This document shows, in pieces, positions 1,377 through 39,108 of a stretch of DNA of 64,000 nucleotides. Every line of letters starts with the position of its first letter. Positions within the stretch are counted from its first letter, which is position 1. The notes beneath the pieces are model-generated. The model searched no databases. It worked only from the letters and a program-made list of their open reading frames with translations, and was not told the DNA's origin. The position numbers and the translations under genes were made by a program. Origin of the DNA: Plumapathes pennacea (taxonomy: Eukaryota > Cnidaria > Anthozoa > Antipatharia > Myriopathidae); the NCBI GenBank assembly GCA_964036295.1, contig OZ038462.1:38415680-38479679 (forward strand), read 5' to 3'.

Positions 1377-1619
1377 ATGAGTTCCTATGGCGGCGAGAGA
1401 TCTGCATGGCGTGACGATCGTGAATACTCTACCGACAGGCGTCGTGGTTCGTCGAGCGAGGATTCTCAAACAAGCAGTTTGGCACAAGACCGAGAGCAGC
1501 TGGTGTTCGATCGCGAAAGCGGCAACTTAATGGTCCGAGGAGATGCTGGCTCGGCTGGAGCTGCAACCCCACCTCGCAAGCCCGTGGTCTCTGGTATTGC
1601 AACCACTGGCTTCTTCTAA
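1377..1619 (+). CDS. Small GFF-tailed protein, candidate protein modifier (paralogue 1)
   Basis: An intronless 80-residue protein. The ATG at 1377 was chosen because the frame upstream has no ATG. The first half is Ser/Arg/Asp-rich and probably disordered. The second half has LVFDRESGNLMV, a Pro-rich spacer, PVVSGIATT and then GFF immediately before the TAA stop. The paralogue at 21312-21548 has the same plan (LEFDRASGVLLV, PVV, GFF, stop), and the 2.4-5.2 kb tandem group shares the FD-x-x-(S/T)-G-x-L block. I do not recognise a named family. The conserved block is too short for a beta-grasp fold, so if this is a modifier it would be Pup-like in being a flexible tag, or would use an unknown fold. 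The function is inferred from the flexible size, the invariant terminal GFF and co-clustering with E1, E2 and JAMM genes. A non-functional short ORF is possible but unlikely given the conservation. Confidence 0.6.
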   Translation: MSSYGGERSAWRDDREYSTDRRRGSSSEDSQTSSLAQDREQLVFDRESGNLMVRGDAGSAGAATPPRKPVVSGIATTGFF

Positions 1620-2412
1620 CACGGGACTTTATACGGTTATTTAGAACTCATCGATAGTCAACTGGATGAAAGCTTTGTGTAAGTGTATGCAGTATATATA
1701 TTTTGTAAAGACGCATCAAGCTTAAATTCACTTCCAGTTTCTCAACTGCGCACAGGGTTTCGGATAAGAACTCAAACTTGCTGACATTGTTTCAGTGTAT
1801 AACCTCAAGTAACATAAATAGAATTTGATGTAACTGGTAGAACAGTAGTGTTGCAGTAGTAAGATGCTATACATTTTATTATAAGGATTCCAATAGCTTC
1901 AGTGCAGGACTTGTAATAAAAATTAAAACGAAACTAGAACAAGTTGGTCTTCGTTCTTCATGATAACAGCAGCCTGTGATTAGGTGGTTCGGTTCCCCTT
2001 TTCAGTTGCCCTCTTCGCAATAATAAAGGTTACTCGATGAGTAGATTTCTGGCAACTTTATCAGTACGAGAAATAAATATGTCAGGACTCAAGGCCACCC
2101 GTTAAGTCGACAAACTAAGGCATACTGGTCTTGTACAGTTCCGTATTGAAATGTAACACGTTTAACATAATCCTGGAAGAAGAGCGCTTTAATACGCAGC
2201 ATCTTGGATCTGAAACAAGTTGAGTTTATAGTCTCTTGTTTTGCCACCGAACGGATGTAGACCTAGCAGAGACGATACCGTTAAATTATGCTTTACACTC
2301 TAAAAGATCTTGTGTGGTCTCCTTACTTATACGCTTGTGAAGTTCTAAATGCATGTTGAGGTAAATTGGCGGCGTTTCCTCTCGAGTAGTTGCCAAGCCG
2401 TTCGGCACTCAG
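1620..2412. other. Spacer between small genes 1 and 2
   Basis: AT-rich spacer with no gene seen. An AATAAA near 1914 could serve as the polyadenylation signal for the gene ending at 1619. Confidence 0.4.
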
Positions 2413-2652
2413 TTACACTGAGCGACCAGAATGTCCCAGTGGTGATTCGAGCCGACTCGCTTGGCTCTTCTCGTACCTGGTATTTGCAGAACTGGCACCC
2501 GGTGAACAGAAGAATCCATCTCCAGCCATTTTTGTGAATACTTGTTTATCGCTTGTCTTCCTTGGAACCAGTTTTCCTGTTTCTGGATCAAAGTACGGCA
2601 TTTGGCCATTCTCCAATGCTTTCTCAAGTGCTTTCTCTTGTTCATTACTCAT
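2413..2652 (-). CDS. Small GFF-motif protein with C-terminal tail (paralogue 2)
   Basis: An intronless 79-residue protein read on the minus strand. It has an acidic/basic N-terminal helix-like stretch, then YFDPETGKLV at about 20-29, DKQV at 35-38, and MAGDGFF ending at residue 48. Unlike paralogue 1 it continues for 31 residues after GFF. That tail aligns residue by residue with the tail of paralogue 4 (pattern ASSA-x-T, SQA, PLG, SV at the end), so it is real protein rather than read-through. The natural reading is a pro-form whose tail is cut after GFF by one of the JAMM proteases in the cluster; that is inference. The ATG sits in a 5' context, CATTGGCAACATG, shared by the tandem copies. 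Confidence 0.6.
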   Translation of the reverse strand: MSNEQEKALEKALENGQMPYFDPETGKLVPRKTSDKQVFTKMAGDGFFCSPGASSANTRYEKSQASRLESPLGHSGRSV

Positions 2653-3940
2653 GTTGCCAATGTAACCGAGGTGTATATCTGTCGGAGCTTTTTGCAGGAA
2701 ACCTGTTCACCTCTTTCCTTCTTCGGGTATTACGCAGTGAAATTTGCGCCTTCGTGCTTACCAGACAAACAAGGAAAATCACGTGACTTCCGCCGTTTCT
2801 CGGTAACCAGCTGACAGAGGATTTTTTTGGTAAGAGCTTTGATGTTGACACGTTAGAAAGAACACCTTTCATTATCTGGTTTCGAAACATGAACGACTGA
2901 CACAAGCTGTTATGTTTCCGAGATTGAAGATTTTGTCGATTCTCTCAACCTTGCGCATGCAGTGTGCTGCAGATGTTGGGGTATCACTGGACTTAAGGCT
3001 GATTGAAAGTATGATAGGGACTTTAAGATACAGGACGCGAGAGGACAACGGCAACGTCGGTGAAACAATAAAACTAATCACAGAAGACAAAAGAAGCAGG
3101 TGAATATCTGAAATTGACATTTTCTCGGGGTCGCGGCGTGCTTTCGCGTGCGACTTCAAATGCTTCTTTTCTACGTCGTTGTCAGGACGTGGACGACAGT
3201 TCGATAAAATAACGACAGTCGTTCTTCTTAGTAGGAAACGATGAAAATCAGTAGAACCTCGGCAAAAGCGGCACAAATTGAGCAACCTAAGAATAGGCAA
3301 AGTTACAAAGACATAGGGAAAACAGAGACTATTTTTTGGTTCCTCGCGTTGCCGTCGCCGTCCTAGGTTTCTTTTACGACGGTTGAATCAATAGGCGTGT
3401 GTTCTCCGGTTCTTCGACCCTTTCAGTTGCCCTCTTTGCAATCAAGCTACTCGATTAGTTGATTCTAGCCGACTTATTACAAGATATAAGATGATGTGAA
3501 CTTCATTTTAAGTCGACAACCAAGACACAGCCTATTGAAAATAACATGATTAACATAACCCTCTCGTACAGTTCTCAATTGATGATGACATGATTAAACT
3601 ACCCACTGGTAGAAGATAGCTTCCAGTTTATACGCAATATTTTTGGATCTGAAATTCACAGTCTCTTGTAGTATCGACGTGGCCAGTAGACTAAAATACA
3701 TTGTGGTCTTCTCACTTCAAATCTTGTCACGTCCTAAACGATAAAGTAAATAGGTGGCGTTTCCTGTCGTAGAAAGTTGCCATGTTGTGTACAACATATC
3801 AAGTCCCGGTAACTGCGCCTTCAGCGGCTGCGAACGTGTTTTTATGGTGCTCTGCGTTATTTTCTTTCTTCGTCCAATTTTAGCACAATATGTTAAATTC
3901 ACTTCGGTGTACCTCGCTTATAGCCGCGGAGTTGCCATGG
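2653..3940. other. Spacer between tandem small genes 2 and 3
   Basis: It contains the promoter block of paralogue 2. The 142-codon open frame at 2872-3300 (minus) shows no motif, no codon bias I can see and no homologue in the array, so I left it out. Nothing else was recognised. Confidence 0.4.
2780..2806 (-). promoter_or_regulatory. Promoter block of paralogue 2: CACGTG plus TTCTCGGTAA
   Basis: CACGTG (2780-2785, E-box/USF-like) is followed by CTTCCGCC (ETS-like GGAAG on the minus strand) and TTCTCGGTAA (2797-2806), about 145 bp before the ATG. The same order recurs before paralogue 4. Factor names are assigned by consensus only. Confidence 0.5.
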
Positions 3941-4177
3941 CTAGGTCAATATCACCATAATCACAGAATTGACAGCTGGGGAACCAAAAAATCCATCCTT
4001 AGCCAGTTTTACATATACTTGTTTATCGTTTGTCTTCTTATGTTCCAGCTTCCCCGTCTCTGGATCAAAGTACTTTAGAGGTAGGCTTTCCTCTGGTTTC
4101 TCGGCCACTCTAGCCCGTATTACCAGCTTTCCTGTCATTGGATCAAAGGCCAAATACTCTTCATGCGCTGTGCTCAT
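3941..4177 (-). CDS. Small GFF-motif protein with two FDP-TGKL repeats and short tail (paralogue 3)
   Basis: An intronless 78-residue protein. The motif occurs twice: AFDPMTGKLV at about residues 10-19 and YFDPETGKLE at about 36-45. DKQV follows, then LAKDGFF ending at residue 64, and a 14-residue tail beginning GSP. The tail starts like the others (G/C-S/F-P) but is shorter and hydrophobic at its end, so its C-terminus may have diverged by frameshift. The doubled motif suggests internal duplication of the conserved block. Proposed as a candidate modifier precursor by family membership only. Confidence 0.55.
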   Translation of the reverse strand: MSTAHEEYLAFDPMTGKLVIRARVAEKPEESLPLKYFDPETGKLEHKKTNDKQVYVKLAKDGFFGSPAVNSVIMVILT

Positions 4178-4673: not shown

Positions 4674-4898
4674 TCAAACTGATCCGCCAGGACGTCCCAG
4701 TGGTAATCCAGAACGAGTTGCTTGGCTCCTTTCGTCCTTGGTGGTTGCAGAACTGGCATCTGGGAAACCAAAAAATCCAGCTGCAGCCATGCCTACAGCC
4801 AGTTGTTTATCGTCTTCCTTCTTCGTTAGCAGCATCCCTTTCTCATAATCAAAGTACAAAGGTTCTTTATTCTCGAGTGCTTTATCCACGTCACCCAT
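4674..4898 (-). CDS. Small GFF-motif protein with C-terminal tail (paralogue 4)
   Basis: An intronless 74-residue protein. It contains LYFDYEKGMLL (degenerate FDPETGKL), DDKQL, and MAAAGFF ending at residue 43. The 31-residue tail matches the tail of paralogue 2 in length and at the ASSATT, SQA, PLG and GGSV positions. Both tails ending at the same place in independent copies argues that the tail is translated. Candidate precursor of a conjugated tag; function inferred from context. Confidence 0.6.
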   Translation of the reverse strand: MGDVDKALENKEPLYFDYEKGMLLTKKEDDKQLAVGMAAAGFFGFPDASSATTKDERSQATRSGLPLGRPGGSV

Positions 4899-5063: not shown

Positions 5064-5068
5064 CCAGT

Positions 5069-5197
5069 CTAAAAAAAGAGGTTTTCCATTTTTGTTAGCA
5101 CTTGTTTATCTTTTGTCCTTCTTCGTACCAGTTTCCCTGTCTCTGGATCGTGGTACAGAGGTTCGTTATTCTCGAGTGCTTCATCCACGTTACTCAT
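5069..5197 (-). CDS. Short member of the small-protein array, 42 residues (paralogue 5, possibly truncated)
   Basis: The frame from the ATG at 5197 gives a 42-residue product with ALENNEPLYHDPETGKLV, then KDKQV, then KMENLFF directly followed by TAG. It keeps the array start context and the central motif. The usual M-x-x-x-GFF is one residue short and has Leu in place of Gly. It could be a decayed copy in which a T-run supplies FF by chance, or a mature-length variant. The last residues and the stop lie in the neighbouring promoter block, which favours truncation. Confidence 0.4.
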   Translation of the reverse strand: MSNVDEALENNEPLYHDPETGKLVRRRTKDKQVLTKMENLFF

Positions 5198-5826: not shown

Positions 5827-5829
5827 GCA

Positions 5830-17934: not shown

Positions 17935-19821
17935 TCACCGCCAACGCGGTCTCACAGCGGTTTCTGTTTTAGCCTTACTGCGACTGAAACCAGGGCGGAT
18001 GCTACCAGATCCTTTGGCTGTGTGGTGCACGCTGCTTGATCGATCGCCTGCTCCTGTTTTAAGCGGAGATCTTGAGGGTCCATATTTTTGTGAACATGTG
18101 GGACAGTGGAAACGTACATTGTGTACTATTTTTTTCATAAGGTCTTTCACGGAAAGAGTTTCACGGTTGATTTTCACCTCTTCGTTGAACTGAGGACCAT
18201 TTAAAGTCACGTCTGACTCTGGAAAGTTCCTTGGAAAATCAATAAACCACCTTCTTTGGTGACACTTAAAACGTATTCTGAGATCATTGGTTTTTCTCGA
18301 GCGATCTGGTTTTACATCCTGTTCGTTTTGTAGCTCATCAAATATTTCTTCCAGTCTGTTTTTACCTTCTTCGGTATCGTACCACTGCTCCCCCGTGGCA
18401 TCATTTGACTTTGCGGAATATGACGGCAGGTAGCGAGGACTTTGCCTCACTGGGGATGGACTTCGCCGGGACGGACTATTTGTAGTACTTGATATGGCTC
18501 GGTTTTTCCTGATGCTCCACAACCCCGTAGATTTGTTACCAATGGGAGGCAAATTTTTTTGCTCCTTTAATAACGAAACTTCCTTTGATCGATGTTCCAC
18601 AGCTACTCCAGAAGGTGGTGAATGGGAAGTAAGTGTCTGACCGCTCGGGTTTTGGTAATGGCTTTCATAAGTTGTAGTATTCGGCGGGGATTCGTCAGAA
18701 CCCTGGGAGCTCCTTTCAGTTTCTCCCCCTCTGGATGCGCTTGCATTGCCTGCTGCAGGATATGGTGTGTGGTCAGGAGGTGCACCAGAGCCTGGCACTT
18801 GAGGTTCATGGCTCGTCTTAACCTCAGTGGATTCATCAGAGACCAGGGGCCTGCCCGTGGGATTAACTGAGGGCAAATGACTTCGAGTACCTGTTGCTGC
18901 TTCTAGTGGCGAAACGTCAGACGAGGATGAAGTGTCTTTTTCTTCTTGGCTTGTGTTGAGTTTACGGTTGTATGTTGGCCTGTTAGTGAGTCGTCTCTCA
19001 GGCGAAGGACTTCTTGTTATGGATGCTCTAGCAGAGGACGAGGCAATGACAGGAGACTGCTCGCTAGCGCCTTTTCCTTGGTGTATATTTTGGACAAGCG
19101 TAATATTTGTGGATTCGTTGTAGCCTCGATGCCTGTTCACAGATTGCCTCTTTGCCGACCGACTTAGGCGATGCGCCGCGGTTTCGTAGTCGATATCCAT
19201 CGCGGATTCCCGGTCAATGTATCGCGTAACTTCAACCTCGGCGCCCTCGCTAATCGCTCTCGGAATGTCGAAAGTTTTAGCCCTAAACGGGCTTTTGCCT
19301 GGAATGATTTCGACACGTCCTGTCTGATAATGGCGCGAGTTTTCCGAGTAAAGATAGGGGGAAATCTTCACCTCTTTGTGCGACAATATATTGACGATTA
19401 TCAAAATAAAGCCGTAAGCTCCACGTGGAAAGTTCGTGCAAACTGTGTTAGAGTCCCCTCCGCTCGGCTCGAACAGCCCGAGTTGGTGATGCGAGTGCCA
19501 TTCGCCGATGTGACCGAGCATGTACTTCTGTGTCAACAGGCTGCCGACTTTCTTAAGATAAGGAATGCTCTGAAAGAAGCTGGTCGAGGTTCGGCGGCAG
19601 CCAGAGCCGGGACCAAGAACAACGTGAATGACCGGTTCGAGTTTATTGCCGTGCTCTGCAGGCGTCCACAACCCGAACAGATCTCCTCCGGTTTCGTTGT
19701 GAGGATGCTTTAAAACCCACCGTCCCATCTCGTTAACATCCTCCTGGAACATATTGATGACAAAATCTCGTCCAACGAAGTTACGAAAGCCATACGGCGG
19801 CAGTTCCTTGGTGTACGCCAT
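17935..19821 (-). CDS. JAMM-motif JAB/MPN protease-like protein with long linker and C-terminal RWD/E2-like domain (JAB-A)
   Basis: An intronless protein of about 628 residues from the ATG at 19821 (two in-frame ATGs lie upstream at 19869 and 19911). I chose 19821 because the N-terminus then resembles the paralogue starting at 35236 and the TTCTCGGAA element falls 68 bp upstream. The MPN domain comes first: ETGGDLFGLW, GPGSGCRRT, and the complete JAMM signature HIGEWHSHH followed by PSGGD (Glu, His-Ser-His, eight residues, Ser-x-x-Asp). A PGKSPFR motif and a long Ser/Pro-rich, probably disordered linker follow. The C-terminal block starts EQWYDTEEG, contains WFIDFPRNFPESD (RWD/E2-like pattern) and ends with CPTC and a basic tail. 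It likely removes or matures a ubiquitin-like tag. JAMM metalloproteases are zinc enzymes; the substrate here is inferred from the neighbouring GFF proteins. Confidence 0.8.
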   Translation of the reverse strand: MAYTKELPPYGFRNFVGRDFVINMFQEDVNEMGRWVLKHPHNETGGDLFGLWTPAEHGNKLEPVIHVVLGPGSGCRRTSTSFFQSIPYLKKVGSLLTQKYMLGHIGEWHSHHQLGLFEPSGGDSNTVCTNFPRGAYGFILIIVNILSHKEVKISPYLYSENSRHYQTGRVEIIPGKSPFRAKTFDIPRAISEGAEVEVTRYIDRESAMDIDYETAAHRLSRSAKRQSVNRHRGYNESTNITLVQNIHQGKGASEQSPVIASSSARASITRSPSPERRLTNRPTYNRKLNTSQEEKDTSSSSDVSPLEAATGTRSHLPSVNPTGRPLVSDESTEVKTSHEPQVPGSGAPPDHTPYPAAGNASASRGGETERSSQGSDESPPNTTTYESHYQNPSGQTLTSHSPPSGVAVEHRSKEVSLLKEQKNLPPIGNKSTGLWSIRKNRAISSTTNSPSRRSPSPVRQSPRYLPSYSAKSNDATGEQWYDTEEGKNRLEEIFDELQNEQDVKPDRSRKTNDLRIRFKCHQRRWFIDFPRNFPESDVTLNGPQFNEEVKINRETLSVKDLMKKIVHNVRFHCPTCSQKYGPSRSPLKTGAGDRSSSVHHTAKGSGSIRPGFSRSKAKTETAVRPRWR

Positions 19822-19888
19822 CGTCGCTTTCCAAAAGGACGCGGGAAGTGTTTCGGTGAATCTGGACATGCGCAGATGCGGCCTACGA

Positions 19889-22320: not shown

Positions 22321-22992
22321 ATGTCAGGCAACCAGCGGAGATTCACCGTAGCTATAAACGCTATGGAATACAAACGAATTTGTATCTGGACCTTGGAGCA
22401 TCAAAACTTGGAGACTGGAGGAGACTTGTTTGGACTATGGCTCGACAAACGTACCGCGGTCATGCAACTTGTCTTGGGCCCCGGGAAAGGTTGTCGGAGA
22501 ACTGCCACTTCGTTCTACCAGGACGTGCAGTACCTGAACAGCGTTGGTTCTCATTTGACCCACAAGGAAGGTCTCGGTCATATTGGTGAGTGGCATTCAC
22601 ATCATAAACTCTCACTGACTCGTCCGAGCGGTGGTGATGAGAACACTGTTTGGTCCAACATGCAAACGTATGGCCTGACTCGTTTCGTCCTCTTCATTGC
22701 GAACATTAATCTTGGTGAATGCGAGAAAGCCTGTGCACGATGCTTTTTATTTGAGGTGGATCCCAAGACGAAGAGAAGACTGCCAGTTCTTCAGGGTACG
22801 TTCCTGGTTTTGCCAGAGGAGAGTCCGTTTCGGTTGAAGGAGACGATCCATATAGAAGTCCAAAGGGGCGCAGAGATGAACTCTCGTGCACTGGCTCCCA
22901 ACATTACAACAAGCAGAATTGGTTCAAACCAAAAATACCAAGAGCAAGATGAATTTGAGATTCCGTGCCCTCAGTGTTGCTCAGTAATGTAA
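22321..22992 (+). CDS. JAMM-motif JAB/MPN protease-like protein ending in a CaaX-like box (JAB-B)
   Basis: A 223-residue intronless protein starting MSGNQRRFTV. The MPN core has ETGGDLFGLW, LGPGKGCRRTATSF, the full JAMM motif GHIGEWHSHH with PSGGD, and the PEESPFR element seen in all paralogues. The long linker and the C-terminal QWYS/RWD-like domain of JAB-A and JAB-D are absent. The protein ends EIPCPQCCSVM: CSVM fits a farnesyl-type CaaX box and the two preceding cysteines could be palmitoylated, as in Ras proteins. The same place in JAB-A reads CPTCSQ, so the terminus may also be a cut-off cysteine pair. Predicted as a possibly membrane-tethered deconjugase or processing protease. Confidence 0.8.
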   Translation: MSGNQRRFTVAINAMEYKRICIWTLEHQNLETGGDLFGLWLDKRTAVMQLVLGPGKGCRRTATSFYQDVQYLNSVGSHLTHKEGLGHIGEWHSHHKLSLTRPSGGDENTVWSNMQTYGLTRFVLFIANINLGECEKACARCFLFEVDPKTKRRLPVLQGTFLVLPEESPFRLKETIHIEVQRGAEMNSRALAPNITTSRIGSNQKYQEQDEFEIPCPQCCSVM

Positions 22993-23619: not shown

Positions 23620-24000
23620 TGCTCCTCCTTCTTCCCCTCTTCCGCTCTCCCTCCCTCCTCCTGATCTGTCCCCTGTCCCCCTCCCTCCCCCTACTCCTCC
23701 TCCTTCTTCCCCCCTCCCTCCCCCTGCTGTTCCTCCTTCTTCCCTTCTCCCTCCCCCTGCTCCTCCTTCTTCCCCTCTTCCGCTCCCCCTCCCTCCTCCT
23801 AATCGGTCCCCTGTCCCCCTCCCTCCCCCTGCTGCTTCTTCTTCCCCTCTCCCTCCCCCTGCTGCTCCTCCTTCTTCCCCCCTCCCTTCCCCTGCTCCTC
23901 CTCCTCCTTCTCCCCTCCCTCGCCCTCCCCCTGCTCCTCCCCTATTCCTTTCTCCATCTCCGTTTCCTCGACCCCTCCCTTGTTCTTCTGTCCTCTTTTT
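23620..24000. repeat. Polypyrimidine low-complexity tract
   Basis: About 380 bp of (CTCC/TTCTTCCCC/CCTG) irregular repeats on the plus strand. The right half encodes the Glu/Gly/Gln/Lys-rich tail of JAB-C on the minus strand, and the left half lies past its stop at 23799. It is probably length-variable, and purine-strand mirror symmetry could allow triplex DNA. Confidence 0.75.
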
Positions 24001-25637
24001 CCTGTAACAAGGCGCTTCATATTATCACACAGTTCTTGTGCAATTTCTTTGTGAGAGCTGCTCTTTAGTACGCTAATCGCATTGTTGCTAGCTCCACGGA
24101 CAACATTAGCTCTAGAGCTGGGGAAATCCGCCGGAAACTCCAAGCGCATATCCGTCGCTTGATACCTCAGCGTCAACCGAATGTCGTGAGAGGACACATC
24201 ACGGCTGGTTTCCACGACCTCAAACTGGTTTTCCTTAAGAGTTCCAAAAATCAGACCAAACAGCTTCATTCCGTCTTCATTTGAGTACCACTGCTCCGCC
24301 TTCACTTCTACTTGGTCAGTTGTGGAATCATCGTCATCACTTTGTCCTTCATCTTCTCTGGCTTCCAGTGGACTGACATCAAAGCCCAACATATCTTTCA
24401 TCGCACGAGTGAGGGGTTCAAAAATACGAAAGGCGCTCTGGCCGGGAAGTTTATCTGCAAAGAGGACACGGTTATCTGTATCAGTATGTTGTACTCTATT
24501 ACTTGAGAACGTGGAAAAAGAAAAGAAGTAAGATTAGTTTAAGTTCTGGAAGAGCAATCGATTTTCAAATAGATATCAGTCTTCCAAATGAGGCAACAGA
24601 CAGGAAGAAAAGTATACCTTTCATTATATCAAACATGTTGTATTTAAATGGTCGTCAAACAGAGCAGAATTTATCCTTAGTTTACATGTTAGGTTAAGGT
24701 AAAGTTATTCTATTTAACGTCAGTAGTTCCGTCAGCTCTGAAGGCTGTTATCAATGGAAGCCGTCGGTGCACCCTTCACCCCGTCCCCCCTCCCCCTCTC
24801 TCTGTCAGTGCTCCGTTATGAGGGTATTTAAAGCTTAAGCTACACAGAACAGAGAGGAGTTGAAACAGACGTTGAGGTCACTAAGGATCGAACCGTGAAC
24901 CTCTTGCTCGGACTAACCGACCGAGCTACGCCTGTGGATCTTAAGAGCTCACAGTTTCATAAATGCCGACTGAATGCAGTGAACTAATTGAACATGGCTG
25001 AGTTTGGGGATGGAAGGAGAACAAACACTCACCGAGTCTCCCTTGTTCAGTCTTTTGCGTGTCTGCGTCGTAAAATGTGCTTTTAATCTCCAGGTGTTTC
25101 TCTCTCTGGTTTATATTCAGCCGTAGTTCGTACTGATTATGGTTTGCAGGGAATTCTGCCAGACAAATGAAACATTATAATAGTGAGTGTCAGCAGTAGT
25201 TCAGTGAAGGTGCGGCAAAATGACCTACACAGATGATACTATCAAATATGTAACACCCGCCCTGTTTTCAGTGTTTTGAGCCTCCTTTTCAGCCATTCTT
25301 TCAAGTCGACTTTATTTTGGTCGAGTCAGAAGATTCCTAGGTCAAGTTAAAGTGAAAGGTTTAGAGATTCAAGCATTTACTCACGTCCATTCTTTTCTCG
25401 CGTGCTCCAGTTGCCTAAGTGCACCAGCGCATGGTTTTCCCGCATGTACTCCTTAACGTCAAGATCACCGGACCTTCCTCCCCTGGATGAAGGTCCTGTG
25501 ACGAACTGTATCACGGGCTGGAAAGAGTGAGTCCACAAGCCGAAAAGCTGCCCTTGCGTCTCTTTGCCTTTGGCCTTCTCCACAAATCTCTTCAACTGTC
25601 TTATCTCGCCGCGGTGGATCGTTACGTTCACACTCAT
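23799..25637 (-). CDS. JAB/MPN pseudoenzyme with QWYS C-terminal domain, three exons (JAB-C)
   Basis: Exon 1 25637-25385 (ATG of MSVNVTIHRG), exon 2 25155-25033, exon 3 24454-23799. All donors are GTGAGT, all acceptors end AG, and phase 1 is kept at both junctions. Exon 1 has GQLFGLWTHSFQPVIQFVTGP, the MPN strand pattern, but the metal site reads HLGNWST where active paralogues have HIGEWHSHH: the Glu is Asn and both His are gone. Exon 3 opens with the family PGQSAFR motif. An acidic linker and the EQWYSNEDG domain with MRLEFPADFP (RWD/E2-like) follow. The C-terminus is a 65-residue Glu/Gly/Lys/Gln low-complexity tail. It cannot be a JAMM protease; a scaffold or decoy role is inferred. Confidence 0.7.
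24884..24935 (-). mobile_element. tRNA-derived SINE fragment in JAB-C intron 2
   Basis: On the minus strand TAGCTCGGTCGGTTAG (A-box-like) precedes GGTTCGATCC (B box) by a tRNA-like distance. The flanks do not form a full cloverleaf, so this is a SINE head or tRNA relic rather than a functional tRNA. Confidence 0.55.
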
Positions 25638-26322: not shown

Positions 26323-27597
26323 TTATGAGCTAAAAAAGTCCACATTTTCTTCGCTGACTTCAATCTCCTGACACGCTTTGCAATCAGGATCCCGCTCCAT
26401 CTCGGCCGGATACCAGCGCAAAATGCCTGGCTGATCAAACCTGTGGAACGGCTTGTAGCTTTTAAAACGATCCTCTCTTCGGTTGGCCCACAGGTAGTAC
26501 GGAGCTTTGAAATCTTCCTCCAGTGGAGCCAGAGCGCTGTCTTTCCCGCGACACAGCTCGACCAGAGCCAACTTTACAATCATGTTAGCGATCGGGGTGA
26601 TGTCTGAAGAGAGACCAACTTGGATGGTCGCCGCCACCTCGTCGTCAGGGACGTAGCTCGGGGCGGCCTCTCTTGCCTGACGGAAGGAGGTTACCTCTTC
26701 ACGAGAGGCCTCTACCATGGCTTCTTTGTAGATGCAGCTGAAACAGGGACCATTCTTAGGGCGGACGCGGAGTACCTCCCCCCCTGCCGCACGCACCGCG
26801 CACTTGCCATACAGGGTGGGAATGTTTAGCTCGATAGTCAGGCTGTTGATGTTCAGCCGGCTCCTTATGTTGTCAGTAGCGGCAATGATGAGGTCGCAGC
26901 CTTTGAGAATCTCCCGCCCTTCGTCAAGCTTGTTAATGCTGGTGCTGTAGCATTCTATCTCGGCGAAGGGGTTCTTATCGAGGATGCAGTCGCGAATGGC
27001 GTTGGTTTTTAGCCTTCCCAAATCGCTCATGCCACAGACATGGCGGATGATGTTGTGCAGCTCAACGCGATCAAAGTCGACCAAGACGAACTTGCCAACT
27101 CCAGCCTTGGCCAACTCGAGAGCAATGTGAGATCCACCACTTCCAAGACCAACAACGGCCACCTTACGGCTCTCCAGAAGGCTAGTCTCCAAGATGCCTT
27201 TGCTGCGCGAGTATAGATCCCCTTTGCAAGGTTGTCGCAACACTCTGGCCTTCTTCAGATTCTCCTTGGAATTCACGCGCAAGAATGCCACGGCGGGACC
27301 GTCTTCGGCAATGATCAGAGCAATTTGCGGCTCGTCGGCAACTTCCAATACTTTGAAGAGTTCTTCAGCATACTCTACGACTTTTGGCTCTTCCTCTGGC
27401 AGCTTTTCCAGCAGTTTATAAACGACGCGTTTTTCGGTTTTGTTTTCTTCGGCAACGAGCGTCACTCGGAGATGGAAAGTGTCATTTTCATCCAGCGACT
27501 GAACGGCGAACGACTTCGATGGCCCATCTTCTTTTTTCAAAATTTCAACAAAGTCAGGCTGTAGCAGGCAAACAACGGGGCCTTCGTCTTCGGACAT
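26323..27597 (-). CDS. ThiF/E1-like ubiquitin-activating-type adenylating enzyme
   Basis: A 424-residue intronless protein. Residues 1 to about 125 are an acidic N-terminal domain I do not recognise. The ThiF/MoeB/E1 Rossmann core follows: VAVVGLGSGGSH (GxGxxG at 150-155), VLVDFDRVELHNIIRH (acidic pair 174/176, Asn182 and Arg185), AATDNIRSR (Asp at 242), and GPCFSC (CxxC 285-288) paired with DPDCKAC (CxxC 406-409), the usual structural zinc site. The family adenylates a modifier C-terminus with ATP. I see no cysteine between 288 and 349, where the crossover-loop catalytic Cys of canonical E1s would lie, so thioester formation may skip the E1 or use another Cys such as 266. It is the only E1 in the cluster, so it probably serves all five E2s. 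TTCTCGGAA lies 122 bp upstream. Confidence 0.85.
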   Translation of the reverse strand: MSEDEGPVVCLLQPDFVEILKKEDGPSKSFAVQSLDENDTFHLRVTLVAEENKTEKRVVYKLLEKLPEEEPKVVEYAEELFKVLEVADEPQIALIIAEDGPAVAFLRVNSKENLKKARVLRQPCKGDLYSRSKGILETSLLESRKVAVVGLGSGGSHIALELAKAGVGKFVLVDFDRVELHNIIRHVCGMSDLGRLKTNAIRDCILDKNPFAEIECYSTSINKLDEGREILKGCDLIIAATDNIRSRLNINSLTIELNIPTLYGKCAVRAAGGEVLRVRPKNGPCFSCIYKEAMVEASREEVTSFRQAREAAPSYVPDDEVAATIQVGLSSDITPIANMIVKLALVELCRGKDSALAPLEEDFKAPYYLWANRREDRFKSYKPFHRFDQPGILRWYPAEMERDPDCKACQEIEVSEENVDFFSS

Positions 27598-28639
27598 AGC
27601 TGCGAATAATGACGATTTGCTCTATCCAAGACGCTTTCTATTGACTACTGAAAATAGCTCCCGAAAGTGCAACGATCGAGTTGGCATTCCGAAAACCAAT
27701 GTGCCATGTGACTTGCTATTCTCGGAAAAAGAACTAAAATTCTTAAATATTAAGAGCTTTACTTGGTGAAAAATGTGTCACATGTCTATTCATTCGACAT
27801 GTGCTAAATACTTTGGAACTAAACATTCATTACTGCGTGACGGCTTTTCGTGGAACTCGGCATATGATTGACAGGCTGGAGTACGCCAATGGCTCGTCCA
27901 CAAACCGAATATATCGCCTCCGATATCGAAGCTGGGACAAAATGATAGGCCCAGCCCTTGACCTCTGCTTTTTCGTTACTTTTCGAGTTCTGTTCATCTA
28001 GCTGGCAGTGCTTATTCTATCATTTAAAAGATGTTATAATTTCGGTACAAATCATCCCTGAACATACGAAGAAGTTCCCTATTCAGGTTAATTTATTCCC
28101 AGCAAAATGCTGAATTGCACACACATTTATACACACGAAAAGACATAATTAAGTTGCAATGGATGGGAAATAACGTGCAAAACTACACGTAAAAATGAGA
28201 TAATATTTGCACTTCACGCAGAGAGACAAACTCCTTGCGTTAGTGACCAATAATCTGGTGTTACTGTGACCCCTTGCTGGGTTTCCGAATTCCAAGTAAA
28301 AGAAGATTTCACTTTGTTGTGTTTTCTAATACTCGGAATCTATTCCAATATTCTCAGAACATCTTGTTTGGTCCGTTGCAACACAAATAATTGCTATGCA
28401 TTTTTCGGAATCAGAAACTATGACTTCGGGTTAGTATTAGTAACTTTGGTCTAAGAAAGCGTTGTTTATAGTACATCTCGCCAAGTGCACTTGTCGGATA
28501 AAACGACATTTCCGGCTTGACCGATTGGAAAAGGTTGAAATTTGCTTTGACCGTGATCCTCCTCAGCCTGCTTTCGCTCGAACCGCTCGTAAGCCCGGAA
28601 ACCGCGTCCGTTCTTTTCAGTTCGACCACCGGGAGAAAA
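27598..28639. other. Divergent promoter region between E1 and the TRADD-N/E2 gene
   Basis: TTCTCGGAA is at 27719-27727. The rest is AT-rich with no gene. Open reading upstream of 28640 lacks an ATG. Confidence 0.4.
27719..27727 (+). promoter_or_regulatory. TTCTCGGAA upstream of E1
   Basis: TATTCTCGGAAAAAG, exact 9-mer, 122 bp before the E1 ATG at 27597. Confidence 0.4.
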
Positions 28640-30313
28640 ATGTCAAAGCCAGCGGGAGGACCGATCGCTCAAGAGACAGAAGCTGTCGGAAAAGAGTCAA
28701 TTGAAGAGACAGAAGAGGTTGAAAGACAACCCGTTCAAGAGACAGAAGAGGTGGAAAGACACCCCATTCAAGAGACAGGAGAAGTGCCCGAGAAACGGCC
28801 AAAAATCGACCCAAACCGCGAGACGGCGGGTGCAGTGAGCAGACCTGCCTTAGACTTGACCGTTGCACACGGGGCCTCCTCTGGATCACTTAGAATTGAA
28901 AATCCTTATTTGGCTGCTGGTGCAATTGCCGGGGCATTAGTTTGTCTGAAACTTGACAGCACTCAGCTCGTTGAAGTTGCGCGAGGTTTTGGCGTAGCTG
29001 CTGGGGTCGCAGCTGGAGTGACCAGTGTAGGTGCACTAACATATCTCTGGGTGACCAACAGAGGACCAACTGAAACAGCCATCAGAAATAGCCTGGAAGG
29101 AAGACCAGCCGCTGGTGCACATGCTAGAGACCCAGAGGTCGAAACCTTCCAACATGGTTCTCTTCTCGTCAAAATCCGTTGTCACTCTCGAGGGAGTTTG
29201 GTACAGTTTATCGAAGATTACGAATCAGGAAATGTTAAGCGGCGCTTGAATAAGGAATTGTCCAAAATTGGATTCACGGGAGACCTGAAAGCTACCATCG
29301 AAAATAGAAAAGAGTTGGAGGAGCACATCAAGACATTGAGGTAAGTTTGATCGTTTTGATAATGGCAGAGTCTTGAATGAGAAATCACTAAAGGAAGGGG
29401 GTGAATAGGAGGTCATCGATCCTCTGATCCGCACCAGATTTGTATCAATTCTGCGTTCAACATTAGGCTGCGACAGTGATTATATAGACAAGATTCGCGC
29501 TCCAAAGCGAGAAAACTCCAAAATCCGCGCCAAGCTTTTCCGTAGTTTTGGCTTATCCAGAAAAGAATAGTTAGGATTATCAGGAAAATATTTTAGTTAA
29601 CGATATACAGTGTTAACAATCATCATTAGGAATTATGTGTCTCAGTAAAGAAATTCAAAACTACCTGGAATAAAACAACCATGAATAATAAATTCTCTGT
29701 TCCTTCTAATATCTTACAATGTAATCCGTGCCAGCTTTATTCTCCACACGTCTGAAGTGTAGGCCAGTACTCTCAAGCAATTAACATGAAAATCCATTTA
29801 ATTCTCAGCGTTCCTGCAAAGACATTAACTTCTCGTCAACAACGGAGTTCTGGTTCAGAGTGGAGTCAGGATCAAGCAAAGCGACTTGGGCTAGAGAAAG
29901 GCATCCTTTCGAAATACTTTCACAACAGAGTGACATGGATGAATCCAAGAGATAGAAGGAACACGATGGTCGAATCAAGAATGACGACAAGCAACGACAA
30001 GAGCTATACACTGAGGATTTACATTCCTGCTGACTATCCAAATAGCTGCCCCACACTTGCGGTTTGCAGTCCACACGGCTCGCTGAAAAAAGTGGACGGA
30101 TCGATGATGACCAAGGAAACATCACAGGATCATACGTATGGCAGTCGAGATGGTTTGACTGTTATCTGCCACTTTAGACCAAGTTGGTGGACCGGTGTGA
30201 ACACTTTGTTTCAAGTGTTCATGAAAGGTCTCCTTTGGTTGGAGGCTTACGAGGGACATCTTCATACTGGAAAACCACTGAGTGCTTACTTAAGGGAAAT
30301 GTATTACTATTAA
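28640..30313 (+). CDS. Predicted fusion: membrane segment plus TRADD-N-like domain spliced to an E2-like domain (E2-1)
   Basis: Exon 1 (28640-29340) ends at GAG|GTAAGT in phase 2. The next AG acceptor (TTTAATTCTCAG, exon from 29809) restores the frame exactly (AG+C gives Ser) and opens an E2-like exon to 30313. The product is about 401 residues. In order: imperfect QETEEVER repeats (about 10-50); hydrophobic Gly/Ala segments (89-103 and 117-138), probably membrane-inserting; GSLLVKIRCHSRGSLVQFIEDYESGNVKRRL type block (172-232), the coral TRADD-N-like pattern; then the E2-like domain with YTLRIYIPADYPNSCP, HTYGSRDGLTVICHF (candidate catalytic Cys) and WLEAYEGHLHTGKPL. Alternatively the E2 may start alone at the ATG 29786. 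The matching phase, canonical sites and short 468-bp intron favour the fusion. Confidence 0.65.
28669..28785 (+). repeat. About 33-bp coding tandem repeat
   Basis: The unit GAGACAGAAGAGGTTGAAAG(A) with a variable CACCCC(A/G)TTCAA part is repeated three to four times. It encodes the QETEEVER-type repeats of the fusion protein's N-terminus. Confidence 0.6.
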
Positions 30314-31183: not shown

Positions 31184-31633
31184 ATGGGTTGGTCCGACAT
31201 TCAACGGAGAAGGCTCGGGATGGAAAAGAACATCCTCGAACAATATTTTTCTGGAAATGTGACATGGATTGACCCGACGGGAAGAACGAAAGTCGAAGTG
31301 AGGATGACGACCAACAACGACAAGCGATACACGCTGAGGGTGTATATTCCCGAGGATTGCCTCAACTCCTGTCCTGTGATGGTGGTGAGTAGCCCCTCAA
31401 GCCCACTGAGAAAGAAAAATGGAGAACAGCTAGTACATACTAGTGGCGACTACCATTGTTGGGGAGCACACGATGGGCTTACTAAAATTTGTCACTTTGG
31501 CAATAATACCTGGTCTAACAGCAACACCCTGTACCAAGTGTTCATGAAAGGTCGGATCTGGTTGGAGGCTTACGAGGCGCATCTTCGCACTGGAAAACCT
31601 CTCAGTGTCTACTTAGCAGAGATGAAAGGGTGA
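31184..31633 (+). CDS. E2-like conjugating enzyme of bacterial type (E2-2)
   Basis: A 149-residue intronless protein starting MGWSDIQRRRLGMEKNILEQ. E2-fold marks: an N-terminal helix; strands with VTWIDP and VEVRMT; RYTLRVYIPEDCLNSCP (the E2 Y-x-L-x-(I/V)-x-(I/F)-P-x-D-(Y)P-x-x-x-P-like line); then HDGLTKICHF with Cys103 as candidate active site; and a C-terminal helix WLEAYEAHLRTGKPLSVYL. It is shorter in the middle than eukaryotic UBC domains and lacks the HPN motif, so it belongs with prokaryotic-type E2s. It is nearly identical to E2-3 outside residues about 77-108. It would carry the modifier as a thioester from the local E1. No E3 partner is visible. Confidence 0.75.
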   Translation: MGWSDIQRRRLGMEKNILEQYFSGNVTWIDPTGRTKVEVRMTTNNDKRYTLRVYIPEDCLNSCPVMVVSSPSSPLRKKNGEQLVHTSGDYHCWGAHDGLTKICHFGNNTWSNSNTLYQVFMKGRIWLEAYEAHLRTGKPLSVYLAEMKG

Positions 31634-32433: not shown

Positions 32434-32877
32434 ATGGGTTGGTCCGACATTCAACGGCGAAGGCTCGGGATGGAAAAAAATATCCTCGAACAATATTTTT
32501 CTGGCAATGTGACCTGGATCGACCCGACTGGAAGAACGAAAGTCGAAGTGAGGATGACGACCAACAACGACAAGCGATACACGCTGAGGGTGTATATTCC
32601 CGAGGATTGCCTCAACTCCTGTCCCGTGATGGTGGTGAGTAGCCCCTCAAGCCCACTGAGAATGAAAAACGGAGACTTGTTACCTGCATCCAGTAGCTCC
32701 TATCACTGTTGGGGAACACACGATGGGTTTACTCAAATTTGCCATTATAGGTCAAGCACCTGGTCTAACAGCAACACCCTGTACCAAGTGTTCATGAAAG
32801 GTCGGATCTGGTTGGAGGCTTACGAGGCGCATCTTCGCACTGGAAAACCACTTAGTGCCTACTTAGCAGAAATGTAA
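32434..32877 (+). CDS. E2-like conjugating enzyme of bacterial type (E2-3)
   Basis: A 147-residue intronless tandem copy of E2-2. The first 76 residues match E2-2 with only silent base changes, and the last 35 or so are nearly identical. The segment between them, around the active site, differs at many residues (GDLLPASSSSYHCWGTHDG, then FTQICHYRSSTW). The ICH cysteine is kept at the equivalent position and the protein ends AEM. It may serve a different substrate or modifier. See the finding on the diversified segment. Confidence 0.75.
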   Translation: MGWSDIQRRRLGMEKNILEQYFSGNVTWIDPTGRTKVEVRMTTNNDKRYTLRVYIPEDCLNSCPVMVVSSPSSPLRMKNGDLLPASSSSYHCWGTHDGFTQICHYRSSTWSNSNTLYQVFMKGRIWLEAYEAHLRTGKPLSAYLAEM

Positions 32878-33292: not shown

Positions 33293-33460
33293 CAATGTTG
33301 GGGAACGTACGACGGCTTCACTCAAATTCGCCATTTCAAGGAAAGCGCCTGGTGTAAAAGCAACACCATGTACCAACTGATCATGCATGAAAGGTCCTGG
33401 CTGCAGGCTTAGGAGGGATACCTCTTGGTGCGTACTAAGGAGAGATGCAGTAACGAAGAA
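33293..33460 (+). pseudogene. Decayed E2 copy
   Basis: Translation gives WGTYDGFTQIRHFKES, W-x-KSNTMYQL and SWLQA followed by a stop, matching the C-terminal half of E2-3 (WGTHDGFTQICHY, SNTLYQVF, WLEAYE). The catalytic Cys codon is Arg, a stop replaces the Tyr after LQA, and the N-terminal half is missing. Non-functional. Confidence 0.7.
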
Positions 33461-34093: not shown

Positions 34094-35236
34094 TTAGTGC
34101 AAACCTTTCTGTGCTATAGAATCCATTTTATTAATTATGGTTGTCATGGTAGCGCTGTAGCAGTCCGTACCCTGAATCCTAACAATATGCAAAACCGTGT
34201 TGGACGATTGAGGCGAACATTTCAAGACGGTCGTCCCCCTCGGGTAATTCGAAGAGCACTGGACATTCCAGAGAAGGCTTTTGCGTTCAATTTTAAAACA
34301 CAAATTTTCGTTGGAGTCATGATACATGCTCACACTCTTCACGCCATCTAAACGCTGAAAGCTTTGCTGTATGCGTTGTAGCTCGGCTTTACCATTCTTC
34401 GTCGAGTACCACTGAACTACCGGTGCTGGTGGAAGCGGCCTTGTTCCTGGCTGTGTAGTTTGGCCAGTTTCTAGCTTTGTTGTCTCTGAAACTCTGGGGT
34501 TTCCGTGTTTTGGGCATTCCTGGCGATTGGAGTATGATGTTGACTTATATTTTGGCGCGGCGGCTGTGTCCCAGCTTTGACCCCGGCCTACTGCTGTGAC
34601 TCTTGCTCTGTCCGGTCTCACTTGCACGGCTGGGCCTGCAGGCTGCCTACCACGTGTAGCGACCTCAGTCCCTCTCTCTATAGCCCCTTTAATTGCGCCT
34701 TGCCTTCTGAAGGGACTCTCACCGGCAAGTAGTCTCACGCTGCACCTTTCTATCTGGCTCGCCCCTTGTCTAAACATGTAAGGAGACAAGACAACCTCTG
34801 AGTTAGGCGAGATGTTTGCAATGAGGAGGAGAAAACCGTGGAATCCTTGAGGATAGTTTCTCTTGACAGTGTTGTAGTCTCCAATACTCGGCTCAAACAG
34901 GCTTAAACTATGATGAGAGTGCCACTCGCCGATGTGGCCCAACATGAAGGTGTTAGTCAGCGTGTTGCCAACGTGTTTGAGGTAGGGAACGTCTTGAAAG
35001 AACGAGTACTCGGTTCGTTTGCATCCCTCGCCTGGTCCGAGAACGATGTGGATCAAAGGCCTCAAGTCGTGTCTACTGCTCGTCCACAAACCAAATAGAT
35101 CACCTCCGGTCTCCAAGTTGGGATAATTCAATACCCAGTCCTTGATCCTTTCAAAGTCTTTCTCAAACATGTACACAGGCAAGGCCCCTGCGCCTGCTGC
35201 TATAAATTCTCCGCACGAACTATAATGCTGGGCCAT
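34094..35236 (-). CDS. JAMM-motif JAB/MPN protease-like protein with C-terminal RWD/E2-like domain (JAB-D)
   Basis: A 380-residue intronless protein from the ATG at 35236 (MAQHYSSCGE). In-frame sequence upstream runs through the promoter element and is not counted. The MPN domain has LETGGDLFGLW, LGPGEGCKRTEYSFFQDV, the complete JAMM motif LGHIGEWHSHH with PSIGD, and LAGESPFRRQ. A Pro/Arg/Thr-rich linker follows, then VVQWYSTKNGKAELQRI and LLWNVQCSSNYPRGT, the C-terminal QWYS domain. It has the same plan as JAB-A with a shorter linker. It is divergent from E2-4 across a 283-bp shared promoter, which suggests co-expression. Likely a deconjugase or precursor-processing protease for the local modifiers; the substrate is inferred. 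Confidence 0.8.
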   Translation of the reverse strand: MAQHYSSCGEFIAAGAGALPVYMFEKDFERIKDWVLNYPNLETGGDLFGLWTSSRHDLRPLIHIVLGPGEGCKRTEYSFFQDVPYLKHVGNTLTNTFMLGHIGEWHSHHSLSLFEPSIGDYNTVKRNYPQGFHGFLLLIANISPNSEVVLSPYMFRQGASQIERCSVRLLAGESPFRRQGAIKGAIERGTEVATRGRQPAGPAVQVRPDRARVTAVGRGQSWDTAAAPKYKSTSYSNRQECPKHGNPRVSETTKLETGQTTQPGTRPLPPAPVVQWYSTKNGKAELQRIQQSFQRLDGVKSVSMYHDSNENLCFKIERKSLLWNVQCSSNYPRGTTVLKCSPQSSNTVLHIVRIQGTDCYSATMTTIINKMDSIAQKGLH

Positions 35237-35313: not shown

Positions 35314-35369
35314 TTCTCGGTAATCTGTAACACAACAGTTCGCATTTTTGACCCGTTAGATTCTCAGAA
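35314..35369. promoter_or_regulatory. Divergent promoter with TTCTCGGTAA and TTCTCAGAA
   Basis: TTCTCGGTAA at 35314-35323 (78 bp before the JAB-D ATG; flank ATGCACATGCGCTTTGCTGC is shared with 30.7 kb) and TTCTCAGAA at 35361-35369 (151 bp before the E2-4 ATG). Confidence 0.45.
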
Positions 35370-35519: not shown

Positions 35520-35966
35520 ATGGCTTGGTCCTTAGCTCAGCGGATAAGACTCGGAAGCGAAAAAGAACTACTCGATAGATATTTCCGTGGCAGAACTACC
35601 TGGACCGACCCGGCGTGGAGAACAAAAATCGAAGTGAGGATGACGACCACCAACAACAGGAGATACACGCTGAGGGCGTATATTCCGGAGGATTATCCAA
35701 ACTCCTGTCCGGTGATGGTGGTAAGCAACCCTCCAAGTCCACTAAGAATGAGAAATGGATACATTTTACCCAACAGCACCAGTTATCATTGTTGGGGGAC
35801 GCACTACAGTGGCTTCACACAGATTTGTCATCACCGTCCTGAATACTGGACTAGCCAGAACACCCTGTATGAAGCGTTCATGAAGGGTCTCATGTGGCTT
35901 GAGGCTTATGAAGGACACCTCCGCACCGGAAAGCCCTTGGATGTTTATTTAGCAGAGATGCGATAG
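35520..35966 (+). CDS. E2-like conjugating enzyme of bacterial type (E2-4)
   Basis: A 148-residue intronless protein from MAWSLAQRIRLGSEKELL. It has the family layout: VEVRMTTTNNRRYTLRAYIPEDYPNSCP, YHCWGTHYSG, FTQICHHRPEYW (candidate active-site Cys), and WLEAYEGHLRTGKPLDVYL. The frame upstream is open to 35382 but has no ATG, and the MAWS start aligns with MGWS in the paralogues. It is closer to E2-2/E2-3 than to E2-5 by the SCPVMVVS and YHCWG strings. Confidence 0.75.
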   Translation: MAWSLAQRIRLGSEKELLDRYFRGRTTWTDPAWRTKIEVRMTTTNNRRYTLRAYIPEDYPNSCPVMVVSNPPSPLRMRNGYILPNSTSYHCWGTHYSGFTQICHHRPEYWTSQNTLYEAFMKGLMWLEAYEGHLRTGKPLDVYLAEMR

Positions 35967-36618: not shown

Positions 36619-37080
36619 ATGGGTTGGAGCCCGGCTCAACAGCGGCGACTAGGCATGGAGAAAGACTTGTTGTCGCATTACTTCCGCGACAGGGTGACAT
36701 GGATTGACCCAAGAGGAAACACAAGGGTCGAAGTGAGAATGACCACGACAAACAACCAACACTACACGTTGAGGATTTATCTCCCGGCGGATTTTCCCAA
36801 CACGTGTCCACAACTCGTAGTATGCAACCCATCATCTCAGTTGAGAAAGTTAGACGGTTCATTAATGAGAGGGGAATCTGACGAAGATCATACATACGGT
36901 ACCAGAGACGGACTCACTGTTATCTGCCACTTCAGGCCGAATTTGTGGACCAGTGAGAACACTCTGTATCAAGTGTTCATGAAAGGCCTCATTTGGCTGG
37001 AAGCTTATGAGGGACATCGCCGCACCGGCCAGCCAATGAATACCTACCTGCGGGATATGTCCCCTTATGGTTACCGATGA
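36619..37080 (+). CDS. E2-like conjugating enzyme of bacterial type (E2-5)
   Basis: A 153-residue intronless protein starting MGWSPAQQRRLGMEKDLL. Motifs: VTWIDPRGNTRVEVRMTTT, YTLRIYLPADFPNTCP, DHTYGTRDGLTVICHFRP with Cys103, and WLEAYEGHRRTGQPM. The DHTYG-TRDGLTVICHFRP string groups it with E2-1 rather than with E2-2/3/4 (YHCWG), giving two E2 subtypes. A short Tyr/Arg C-terminal extension (SPYGYR) is unique to it. Confidence 0.75.
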   Translation: MGWSPAQQRRLGMEKDLLSHYFRDRVTWIDPRGNTRVEVRMTTTNNQHYTLRIYLPADFPNTCPQLVVCNPSSQLRKLDGSLMRGESDEDHTYGTRDGLTVICHFRPNLWTSENTLYQVFMKGLIWLEAYEGHRRTGQPMNTYLRDMSPYGYR

Positions 37081-38117: not shown

Positions 38118-38126
38118 TTCTCGGAA
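38118..38126 (+). promoter_or_regulatory. TTCTCGGAA upstream of JAB-E
   Basis: GATTCTCGGAATTG, exact 9-mer, 68 bp before the ATG at 38194, the same spacing as JAB-A. Confidence 0.45.
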
Positions 38127-38193
38127 TTGAAAATTTTAGTCGCAGCGAAATCAGGCAGAACTGAGCGGAGTTGTACGCCGAGTCTGTGATATC

Positions 38194-39108
38194 ATGCCAT
38201 CCTACGATGATTTTACTCTGTACATCTTTCAAGAAGACTTGACAAGACTTGAGACGTTCCCTCCTGGATCAGAGGGGAGCCTGTACGGTCTGTGGACGAG
38301 CACTCTCAATCCTGTAGTTCATGTGGTGCACGAGCGACCTTTGTCAACCCAAAACGTGGATTCAATCCACGAAAGATTAGCTCAAAGGTACAAAATGGCC
38401 TACCTCGGCAACTGGCGGGTTGTGGGACAATCGGGCGCAGAAAGCATATCTCCACCACATTCCTTTCAGCTGGGAGGACCGACTGGGTTTTTAGCGGTGA
38501 CTGTGAAGAACGGTAAGGTCATTCCACAGATGTATGAGAGACCCACAGACATACACCCAAAGCGTGGATCGGTAGATGCTCTACAAGGAGACAATCCATT
38601 TGCTAAGGACCAAGATACCCGAGCTATCATCAGTGGGACTGCCAGAGCGGGCCAGCAGAGGCAGGAGCGTGTAGTCCCCACCGGCAGCGAAGCCTACGAG
38701 ACTTACCGCAATCAACAGCAGCGGCAGAGGTACGGCGATACGAACCCACGGCCAAACCAGAGGTGGGTTGCGGCGGCTGGGGAGCCTGCACAGACGAGTA
38801 GTTCGCAGTGGTATTCAAGTGAAGGAGGTGAACAAAGTCTTAAGCGCGTGTTTGAAAGGATGAAGGGAATTGCTGATGGAAGAGAAGTGCAGATGGCGCG
38901 TAACTCCCAAACTCAAGACATCACGTTGTCATTCAAATGCCGCCAGAGGGACTGGAACATTGAATTTCCCGCCAGATTCCCGGGGGTGGGTGCTAAGATC
39001 AGAGGAAATGGTACCCGCTTCGAATTGCTCGTCGAAAAGCGGACGAGTAGCACAAGAAATATACACACAGCCATTGGGGAGATATGCGCGATTGTTCAGT
39101 CGACTTAA
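38194..39108 (+). CDS. JAB/MPN pseudoenzyme with QWYS C-terminal domain (JAB-E)
   Basis: A 304-residue intronless protein starting MPSYDDFTLYIFQEDL. It has SLYGLWTSTLNPVVHVVHE and QGDNPFAK, both family MPN marks, but the metal site reads MAYLGNWRVVG in place of HIGEWHSHH (Glu to Asn, both His absent) and no Ser-x-x-Asp follows. A Gln/Arg-rich linker leads to SSQWYSSEGGEQSLKRVF, KCRQRDWNIEFPARFPG (RWD/E2-like) and a C-terminal helix. Together with JAB-C it shows that a catalytically dead branch kept its C-terminal domain, so that domain is probably the working part. Confidence 0.75.
   Translation: MPSYDDFTLYIFQEDLTRLETFPPGSEGSLYGLWTSTLNPVVHVVHERPLSTQNVDSIHERLAQRYKMAYLGNWRVVGQSGAESISPPHSFQLGGPTGFLAVTVKNGKVIPQMYERPTDIHPKRGSVDALQGDNPFAKDQDTRAIISGTARAGQQRQERVVPTGSEAYETYRNQQQRQRYGDTNPRPNQRWVAAAGEPAQTSSSQWYSSEGGEQSLKRVFERMKGIADGREVQMARNSQTQDITLSFKCRQRDWNIEFPARFPGVGAKIRGNGTRFELLVEKRTSSTRNIHTAIGEICAIVQST

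Follow-up and report, generated by a model that had tools for sequence, protein, structure and literature searches.

A multigene conjugation cluster, very probably derived from a bacterial antiphage operon, in the genome of the anthozoan Plumapathes pennacea

Introduction

The closest described relative of the genes reported here is the type II cyclic-oligonucleotide-based antiphage signalling system (CBASS, with Cap2 and Cap3), in particular its split form with separate JAB, E2 and E1 genes. Uptake of a bacterial immune gene by a eukaryote has also been described, for TirBCD of Dictyostelium, whose locus, in the part of the source drawn on here, carries a TIR domain and no other operon component (PMC13142454). 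The present study concerns a stretch of 64,000 nucleotides (C1:38415680-38479679, hereafter the window, meaning the whole of the DNA analysed) of contig OZ038462.1 in the 290-Mb, 24-contig genome of Plumapathes pennacea, where conjugation-type genes, namely an E1, E2s, JABs and a family of small open reading frames (ORFs), stand together within 38 kb of a 42-Mb animal contig. Unlike the TirBCD locus, this cluster holds a three-enzyme set, and it is very probably a horizontally acquired, domesticated conjugation module of CBASS origin.

With split type II CBASS the cluster shares homologous E1, E2 and JAB proteins, the CxxC pairs of E1, the E2 Cys, the JAMM motif and, in a structural model, the fold of the Serratia CBASS E2; it differs in its animal host, in the multiplication of E2 and JAB, and in its extra small ORFs, CaaX ends and shared promoter element. 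An initial annotation, made from the sequence alone, had listed one E1, five E2s plus a dead copy, and three JAMM-positive and two JAMM-negative JABs, a list borne out when the ORFs were re-read. Its idea of a transfer followed by expansion in the animal is supported, the link to immunity being plausible, and the bacterial source that it proposed for the enzymes stands, while, of the two operon types that it named as examples, the CBASS operon, in the form with separate JAB, E2 and E1, is the source type rather than Bil. The cluster is not itself filed as CBASS, because a CD-NTase in the locus is not shown: one operon CD-NTase had no match in the host genome in a search without a positive control, which a diverged animal cyclase would escape.

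Results

E1 and its bacterial relatives

The E1 (26323..27597, minus strand, 424 aa) is a single open frame with a promoter element upstream, and its assignment to the ThiF family in the initial annotation agrees with a ThiF match at E=6.3e-36. An E1 query found a single place in the host genome. This gene is one frame of 432 codons, whereas the remaining 11 ThiF rows from the host have the size of exons (34-213 residues of open frame). In a tblastn search of plasmids the protein matched a Bradyrhizobium operon at 43.4% identity (E=7e-57), and the sole two plasmid matches to E2 fall in the same operon. Over the ThiF domain, identity is 42-47% to operon E1s and 25% to UBA5.

That the enzymes are ordinary paralogues of the eukaryotic ubiquitin system might be read from the matches of E1 to UBA5, ThiF and MoeB in the PDB; these reach about 53-55 bits (phmmer), however, whereas a bacterial operon E1 scored 235 bits in the genome search, and the stretch C-terminal to the ThiF domain is common to the animal E1 and the operon E1s. 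A tree against bacterial homologues, which the initial annotation had proposed, was run for E1. Built on the ThiF domain, covering E1 and not E2 or JAB, with UBA5 as its only eukaryotic row and with loci L017 and L020 left out, it places the animal E1 within the prokaryotic E1 group (support 97/92), without a settled position inside it. This tree replaced a full-length one because long multidomain rows had dominated the latter, leaving the animal E1 unplaced. An approximately unbiased (AU) test did not reject E1 as the sister of UBA5 (p=0.069, UBA5 being the sole eukaryotic row). Descent from eukaryotic paralogues is largely contradicted for E1, the AU test not being decisive, and as an account of the enzymes we consider it very improbable.

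Operons of the same type were found at no fewer than 12 loci by a pattern-based scan of the genome collection, which used two short patterns and was not exhaustive; the 12 derive from Planctomycetota, Acidobacteriota, Alphaproteobacteria, Steroidobacter, a Cyanobacteria bin and Omnitrophota. The gene order JAB, E2, E1 holds in 12 of 13 loci (L017 was not resolved by ORF picking), E2 was present in all seven genomes searched out of the 12, and one operon was typed as helix-turn-helix (HTH)-JAB, ThiF, SMODS cyclase (1e-26) and SAVED-Cap4-like effector. Three surveys, covering 392, 369 and 384 genomes, turned up 6, 2 and 3 genomes respectively with an E1-like match at E<=1e-25; the 42-45% kind, across the whole E1 region, accounts for 1, 1 and 2 of them. 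Since each tally includes a centre genome known beforehand, the surveys add one new close relative (G873). The cyclase tail could be read in 12 of the 13 loci (L014 being the exception). Gly is penultimate in 11 of the 12 tails (as FG in 10), the last residue being Ala in four of these, Gln in six and Val in one, and the twelfth ends in Lys; the cyclase of L077 ends in FSLPI. One terminal residue might be trimmed from these tails.

Some variants of the bacterial operons were seen as well. In an Afipia metagenome-assembled genome, E1 and cyclase are read as one 770-aa frame (L023:6605-8917), possibly a natural fusion. The operon JAB bears an HTH-like N-terminal extension in L014, L015, L018, L021, L024, L025 and L077, recognised by Pfam (HTH_3, capH-like) in L015 and by eye in the others, which suggests that a JAB so extended may also regulate its operon. 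At L057/L079 and L078, from other bacterial genomes, E2s with an additional N-terminal stretch, which we take to resemble a PHD-type antitoxin, adjoin ThiF and JAB genes.

Genomic setting

An E2 query gave 11 matches in the host genome, ten at C1:38.407-38.453 Mb, among them two pieces of one broken copy and one dead copy, and one at C1:30.22 Mb, about 8 Mb away. Further JABs lie outside the window at 38.413, 38.414, 38.273 and 38.277 Mb; all four were read as ORFs, JAB8 in part, up to the end of its stretch, and a C11 row in the same search (E=0.85) was discarded as chance. A seventh small ORF, sm7, also lies outside the window (L038:1179-1568, minus strand). Searching the host for GFP, with no positive control, gave no match.

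Bacterial contamination or an assembly error would account for genes that are bacterial in type and, for every intact E2 and JAB named here, single open frames. However, a frame with a nuclear-receptor ligand-binding domain (2.6e-21, C1:38400000-38401010) stands upstream, some 6 kb from the closest gene assigned to the cluster, which supports the animal nature of the 42-Mb contig; moreover, the tandem copies are of different ages, E2b and E2c being separated by a synonymous divergence (dS) of 0.30 and the remaining E2 pairs by more than 1, and the E2 copy 8 Mb away carries the promoter element of the cluster. Contamination is thus already contradicted by the genomic setting, and we regard it as exceedingly improbable.

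E2 enzymes

The five E2 genes, all on the plus strand, are E2a (29786..30313), E2b (31184..31633), E2c (32434..32877), E2d (35520..35966) and E2e (36619..37080), accompanied by a broken copy with an in-frame stop (33293..33424, plus strand). The promoter element stands upstream of E2c and E2d; E2a and E2e have none within 300 bp, and that of E2b lies only at 461 bp. The other four E2-like ORFs are 59-65% identical to E2e, with the ICH motif invariant in all, and the ratio of nonsynonymous to synonymous divergence (dN/dS) is 0.08-0.23 in the five of ten pairs with an estimable dS, two of which are near saturation. Aligned with the operon E2s, they are 26-32% identical to these, and a genome search gave values of up to 36%. 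The model of E2e adopts an E2 fold, predicted to resemble that of the Serratia CBASS E2 and also that of one BubCD structure. A PDB sequence search with a single E2 gave nothing significant, and an E2 profile gave weak matches only (best 0.016), with RWD/E2 proteins foremost.

JABs, the QWY domain and CaaX ends

Three JABs have the HSHH..S..D motif: JAB1 (17935..19869, minus strand), JAB2 (22321..22992, plus strand) and JAB3 (34094..35236, minus strand). The motif is missing from JAB4 (38194..39108, plus strand) and from an 86-aa JAB fragment (25377..25637, minus strand). JAB1, JAB3, JAB4 and the fragment have the promoter element upstream, whereas JAB2 has none within 300 bp. For JAB3 and JAB1, the JAB encoded by the Bradyrhizobium operon is a 31-32% match (32% for JAB1), and putative Cap3-like JABs with JAMM are, judged by sequence, present. 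In the PDB, a sequence search with a single JAB found nothing significant and a JAB profile reached 0.084 at best.

JAB1, JAB3 and JAB4 end in a domain that we call QWY, which also occurs free-standing (23799..24401, minus strand, no element within 300 bp). Over a short stretch the domain resembles the E2 profile (Prob 7.5, E 0.0047), and this, with the predicted order of strands and helices, hints that it is E2/RWD-like; homology to the C-terminus of bacterial JABs was tried and rejected (hhalign Prob 0.2).

JAB2 ends in CCSVM and the distant E2 in SCSVM, and among 269 Met-to-stop ORFs of at least 60 residues in the stretches scanned only these two have CaaX-type ends. Both proteins may be prenylated.

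A shared promoter element

Two intergenic repeat families have TTCTCGGTAA in common. The window has 11 copies of the sequence TTCTCGGNAA where 0.51 would be expected, and none of 100 shuffles reached 11. With its optional base allowed, the element has 14 sites in positions 1-40000 and none in the other 24 kb, and control loci totalling 70 kb have two. Among these 14 sites is TTCTCGGAAA before E1 (27719..27728, plus strand); TTCTCGGTAA lies between JAB3 and E2d (35314..35323, plus strand). The strict pattern TTCTCGG(N)AA was drawn from repeats at four sites, so that the remaining strict sites are independent of the choice of pattern; of 27 member genes, 15 have it no farther than 300 bp upstream, compared with 0.8% of random segments taken from outside, and 15 kb of coding sequence contain no copy. 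These 27 genes include a TRADD-N-like gene, sm5 and the JAMM-negative ORFs, and exclude the broken E2s. A looser form, TTCYYGG(T)AA, widened post hoc after near misses had been seen, lies within the same distance upstream of 20 of the 27 genes, compared with 2.2% of background segments; the distant E2 and all seven small ORFs except sm3 are among the 20. TTCYYGGAA presumably corresponds to the pattern TTCN3GAA of STAT or gamma-activated sites, which TTCTCGGTAA variants match less well.

Small ORFs

The six small ORFs of the window have a D...G.L core in common, along with GFF or LFF. These are sm1 (1377..1619, plus strand, 80 aa, ending in GFF, with a STAT-like site upstream), sm2 (2413..2652, minus strand, 79 aa, GFF followed by a 31-residue tail, with TTCTCGGTAA about 145 bp upstream), sm3 (3941..4177, minus strand, 78 aa, with two FDPxTGKL motifs, GFF and a 14-residue tail, and no element within 300 bp), sm4 (4674..4898, minus strand, 74 aa, GFF and a 31-residue tail, element upstream), sm5 (5069..5197, minus strand, 42 aa, ending in LFF, probably degenerate, element upstream) and sm6 (21312..21548, minus strand, 78 aa, ending in GFF, with a looser element upstream). 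The shared motif that the initial annotation had described in six ORFs holds, and its mostly GFF end does not, since exact termination at GFF is confined to sm1 and sm6.

In the core of sm1, sm6 and sm7, differences at the three codon positions number 44/34/72 (101 codon pairs from three non-independent pairs of ORFs), and this third-position excess is a mark of coding constraint; in sm2-sm5 the excess is weaker (49/64/67 in 177 codon pairs). Searches of the host genome returned four rows for sm4 and two for sm6 (the second at E=2.06), in cluster places only. The small ORFs are tied to the enzymes by their shared promoter elements, their confinement to the cluster and their coding constraint. 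A Pfam scan of sm1, sm2 and sm6 gave no match over the cut-off, beta-grasp or other, which is a possible point of difference from Bil and Bub operons.

A detachable N-terminal segment of E1

In most of the bacterial operons seen, a segment of 60 residues is fused to the N-terminus of E1. Its conservation is strong across an alignment of 12 bacterial sequences. The segment is missing from the animal E1, and in L025 (Omnitrophota) and L077 (a genome of the same phylum) it is encoded as a separate 60-aa gene (L025:6483-6665 and L077:2686-2868), placed between E2 and E1 and overlapping the E1 start by four bases. The animal small ORFs could be counterparts of this segment, in which case the enzymes would be domesticated CBASS enzymes and the small proteins unconjugated, free-standing partners of E1. 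The hairpins QLVFDRESGNLMV and KLVYDRTKKTIVAV do look alike, and a score at least as high came from only 4 of 400 shared permutations. In the other direction, hhalign of small ORFs against the segment gave Prob 0.1, scans with hidden Markov models missed both ways, and the bacterial segment has no GFF end. Moreover, a position-specific scoring matrix of 13 residues ranked the small ORFs 15 to 394 among 6212 ORFs, and one of 26 residues ranked six of the seven 26 to 713 among 4570, while the seventh came first, but on a stretch outside the hairpin. As relatives of the segment the small ORFs were accordingly rejected, the shared-permutation test being the sole result in favour; on account of the gene arrangement the partner explanation still stands as a rival, though an unlikely one.

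Neighbouring genes

Inside the cluster, a 234-aa ORF (28640-29344, plus strand) has N-terminal repeats, hydrophobic stretches and weak matches to TRADD-N (E 0.19-0.22). Expansions of TRADD-N in marine invertebrates are described in the part of Kaur et al. (PMC8195603) cited here, which bears on this neighbour only. At L048 (C1:38265000-38274999), frames with animal TIR domains adjoin the distant JAB genes of the same family.

Discussion

Taken as a CBASS-derived module with its own substrates, the cluster may have the following history and mode of action. A JAB-E2-E1 module of CBASS type would have passed from bacteria to an animal ancestor, shed its cyclase and effector partners, and been amplified into a co-regulated cluster. 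The E1 would adenylate the C-terminus of a small protein, which one of several E2s would accept on the invariant Cys of ICH and attach to targets, and from which the JAMM-positive JABs would release it or which they would mature beforehand; the small proteins of the cluster are the likely substrates. A JAB cut after the conserved Gly of xxG|FF would remove FF and any tail, and so would yield, tail or no tail, a C-terminal Gly of the kind used by CBASS E1s. The CaaX-ended E2 and JAB members may act at membranes, and the STAT-like promoter element would turn the set on in immune responses, the module being probably immune-inducible. As to this full mechanism with the small proteins as substrates, we find the case evenly balanced.

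The proposed terminal Gly has a precedent: the cyclase on which Cap2 acts must end in Gly or Ala (PMC10097602, in the part relied on here). Several results nevertheless weigh against the module as outlined, beginning with the AU test given above. In the same part of that source, Jenson et al. describe other CBASS architectures with no conserved cyclase C-terminal residue, and, as six of the 12 tails read here end in Gln, the Gly rule may not carry over. Foldseek returned no match to the E2 model at E<=0.001 (best 1.8e-3). Even the loose promoter element is missing before seven of the 27 genes (the TRADD-N-like gene at 28640, sm3, JAB2, the free QWY, E2a, E2b and E2e). Constraint is weak between sm4 and sm5 (dN/dS 0.89) and between sm3 and sm4 (0.76), and beyond GFF the third position shows no excess (12/31/22), so that selection appears to see the part up to GFF. 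At E<=1, tblastn found no match for sm6 and sm2 in plasmids or for sm2 in phages, and comparisons of small ORFs with the bacterial operon loci were empty or not significant. The tails of the small ORFs, tried as mimics of the cyclase tail LWRKLFGSxFG, were rejected: in a test that drew on nine distinct bacterial tails and on all but one of the seven small ORFs, 715 of 5000 permutations were as good, a number that fell to 455 of 5000 when the last two residues were kept in place. Bacterial operons with a GFF-ended small ORF beside E1, for which the initial annotation had suggested a search, were found neither by a motif script over 13 loci nor in ORF lists read by eye.

Some of these observations could also be understood if the enzymes acted on an unrelated host protein outside the cluster, such as a host cyclase or ubiquitin-like protein, with the small ORFs as regulators, targets or decaying by-products. 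The degenerate look of sm5 and the weak constraint on some small ORFs would fit, as would the lack of an operon-type CD-NTase match in the host, in the search without a positive control; yet the small ORFs have the promoter element of the enzymes, are found, as far as the genome searches with sm4 and sm6 go, in the cluster only, and show codon constraint. We judge an outside substrate quite unlikely.

Going beyond the CBASS-derived module itself, one may picture a second animal ubiquitin-like system of antiphage origin, with tiny non-beta-grasp tags, xxG|FF maturation, prenylated enzymes and a STAT-like regulon, whose tags may descend from or replace the detachable N-terminal partner of E1; we put this forward tentatively, with more doubt than confidence. 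In literature on CBASS or bacterial ubiquitin-like enzymes in animals, in cnidarians or through horizontal transfer, no such cluster appears in the titles and abstract openings among the matches listed, most subscription journals lying outside that scope. If the reading is true, a multi-gene bacterial immune module, and not a single domain, would have been adopted by an animal, multiplied and placed under one promoter code, and the cluster would provide a testable case both of a conjugation pathway swapping its substrate, the cyclase, for something new and of the lower size bound of a conjugated tag.

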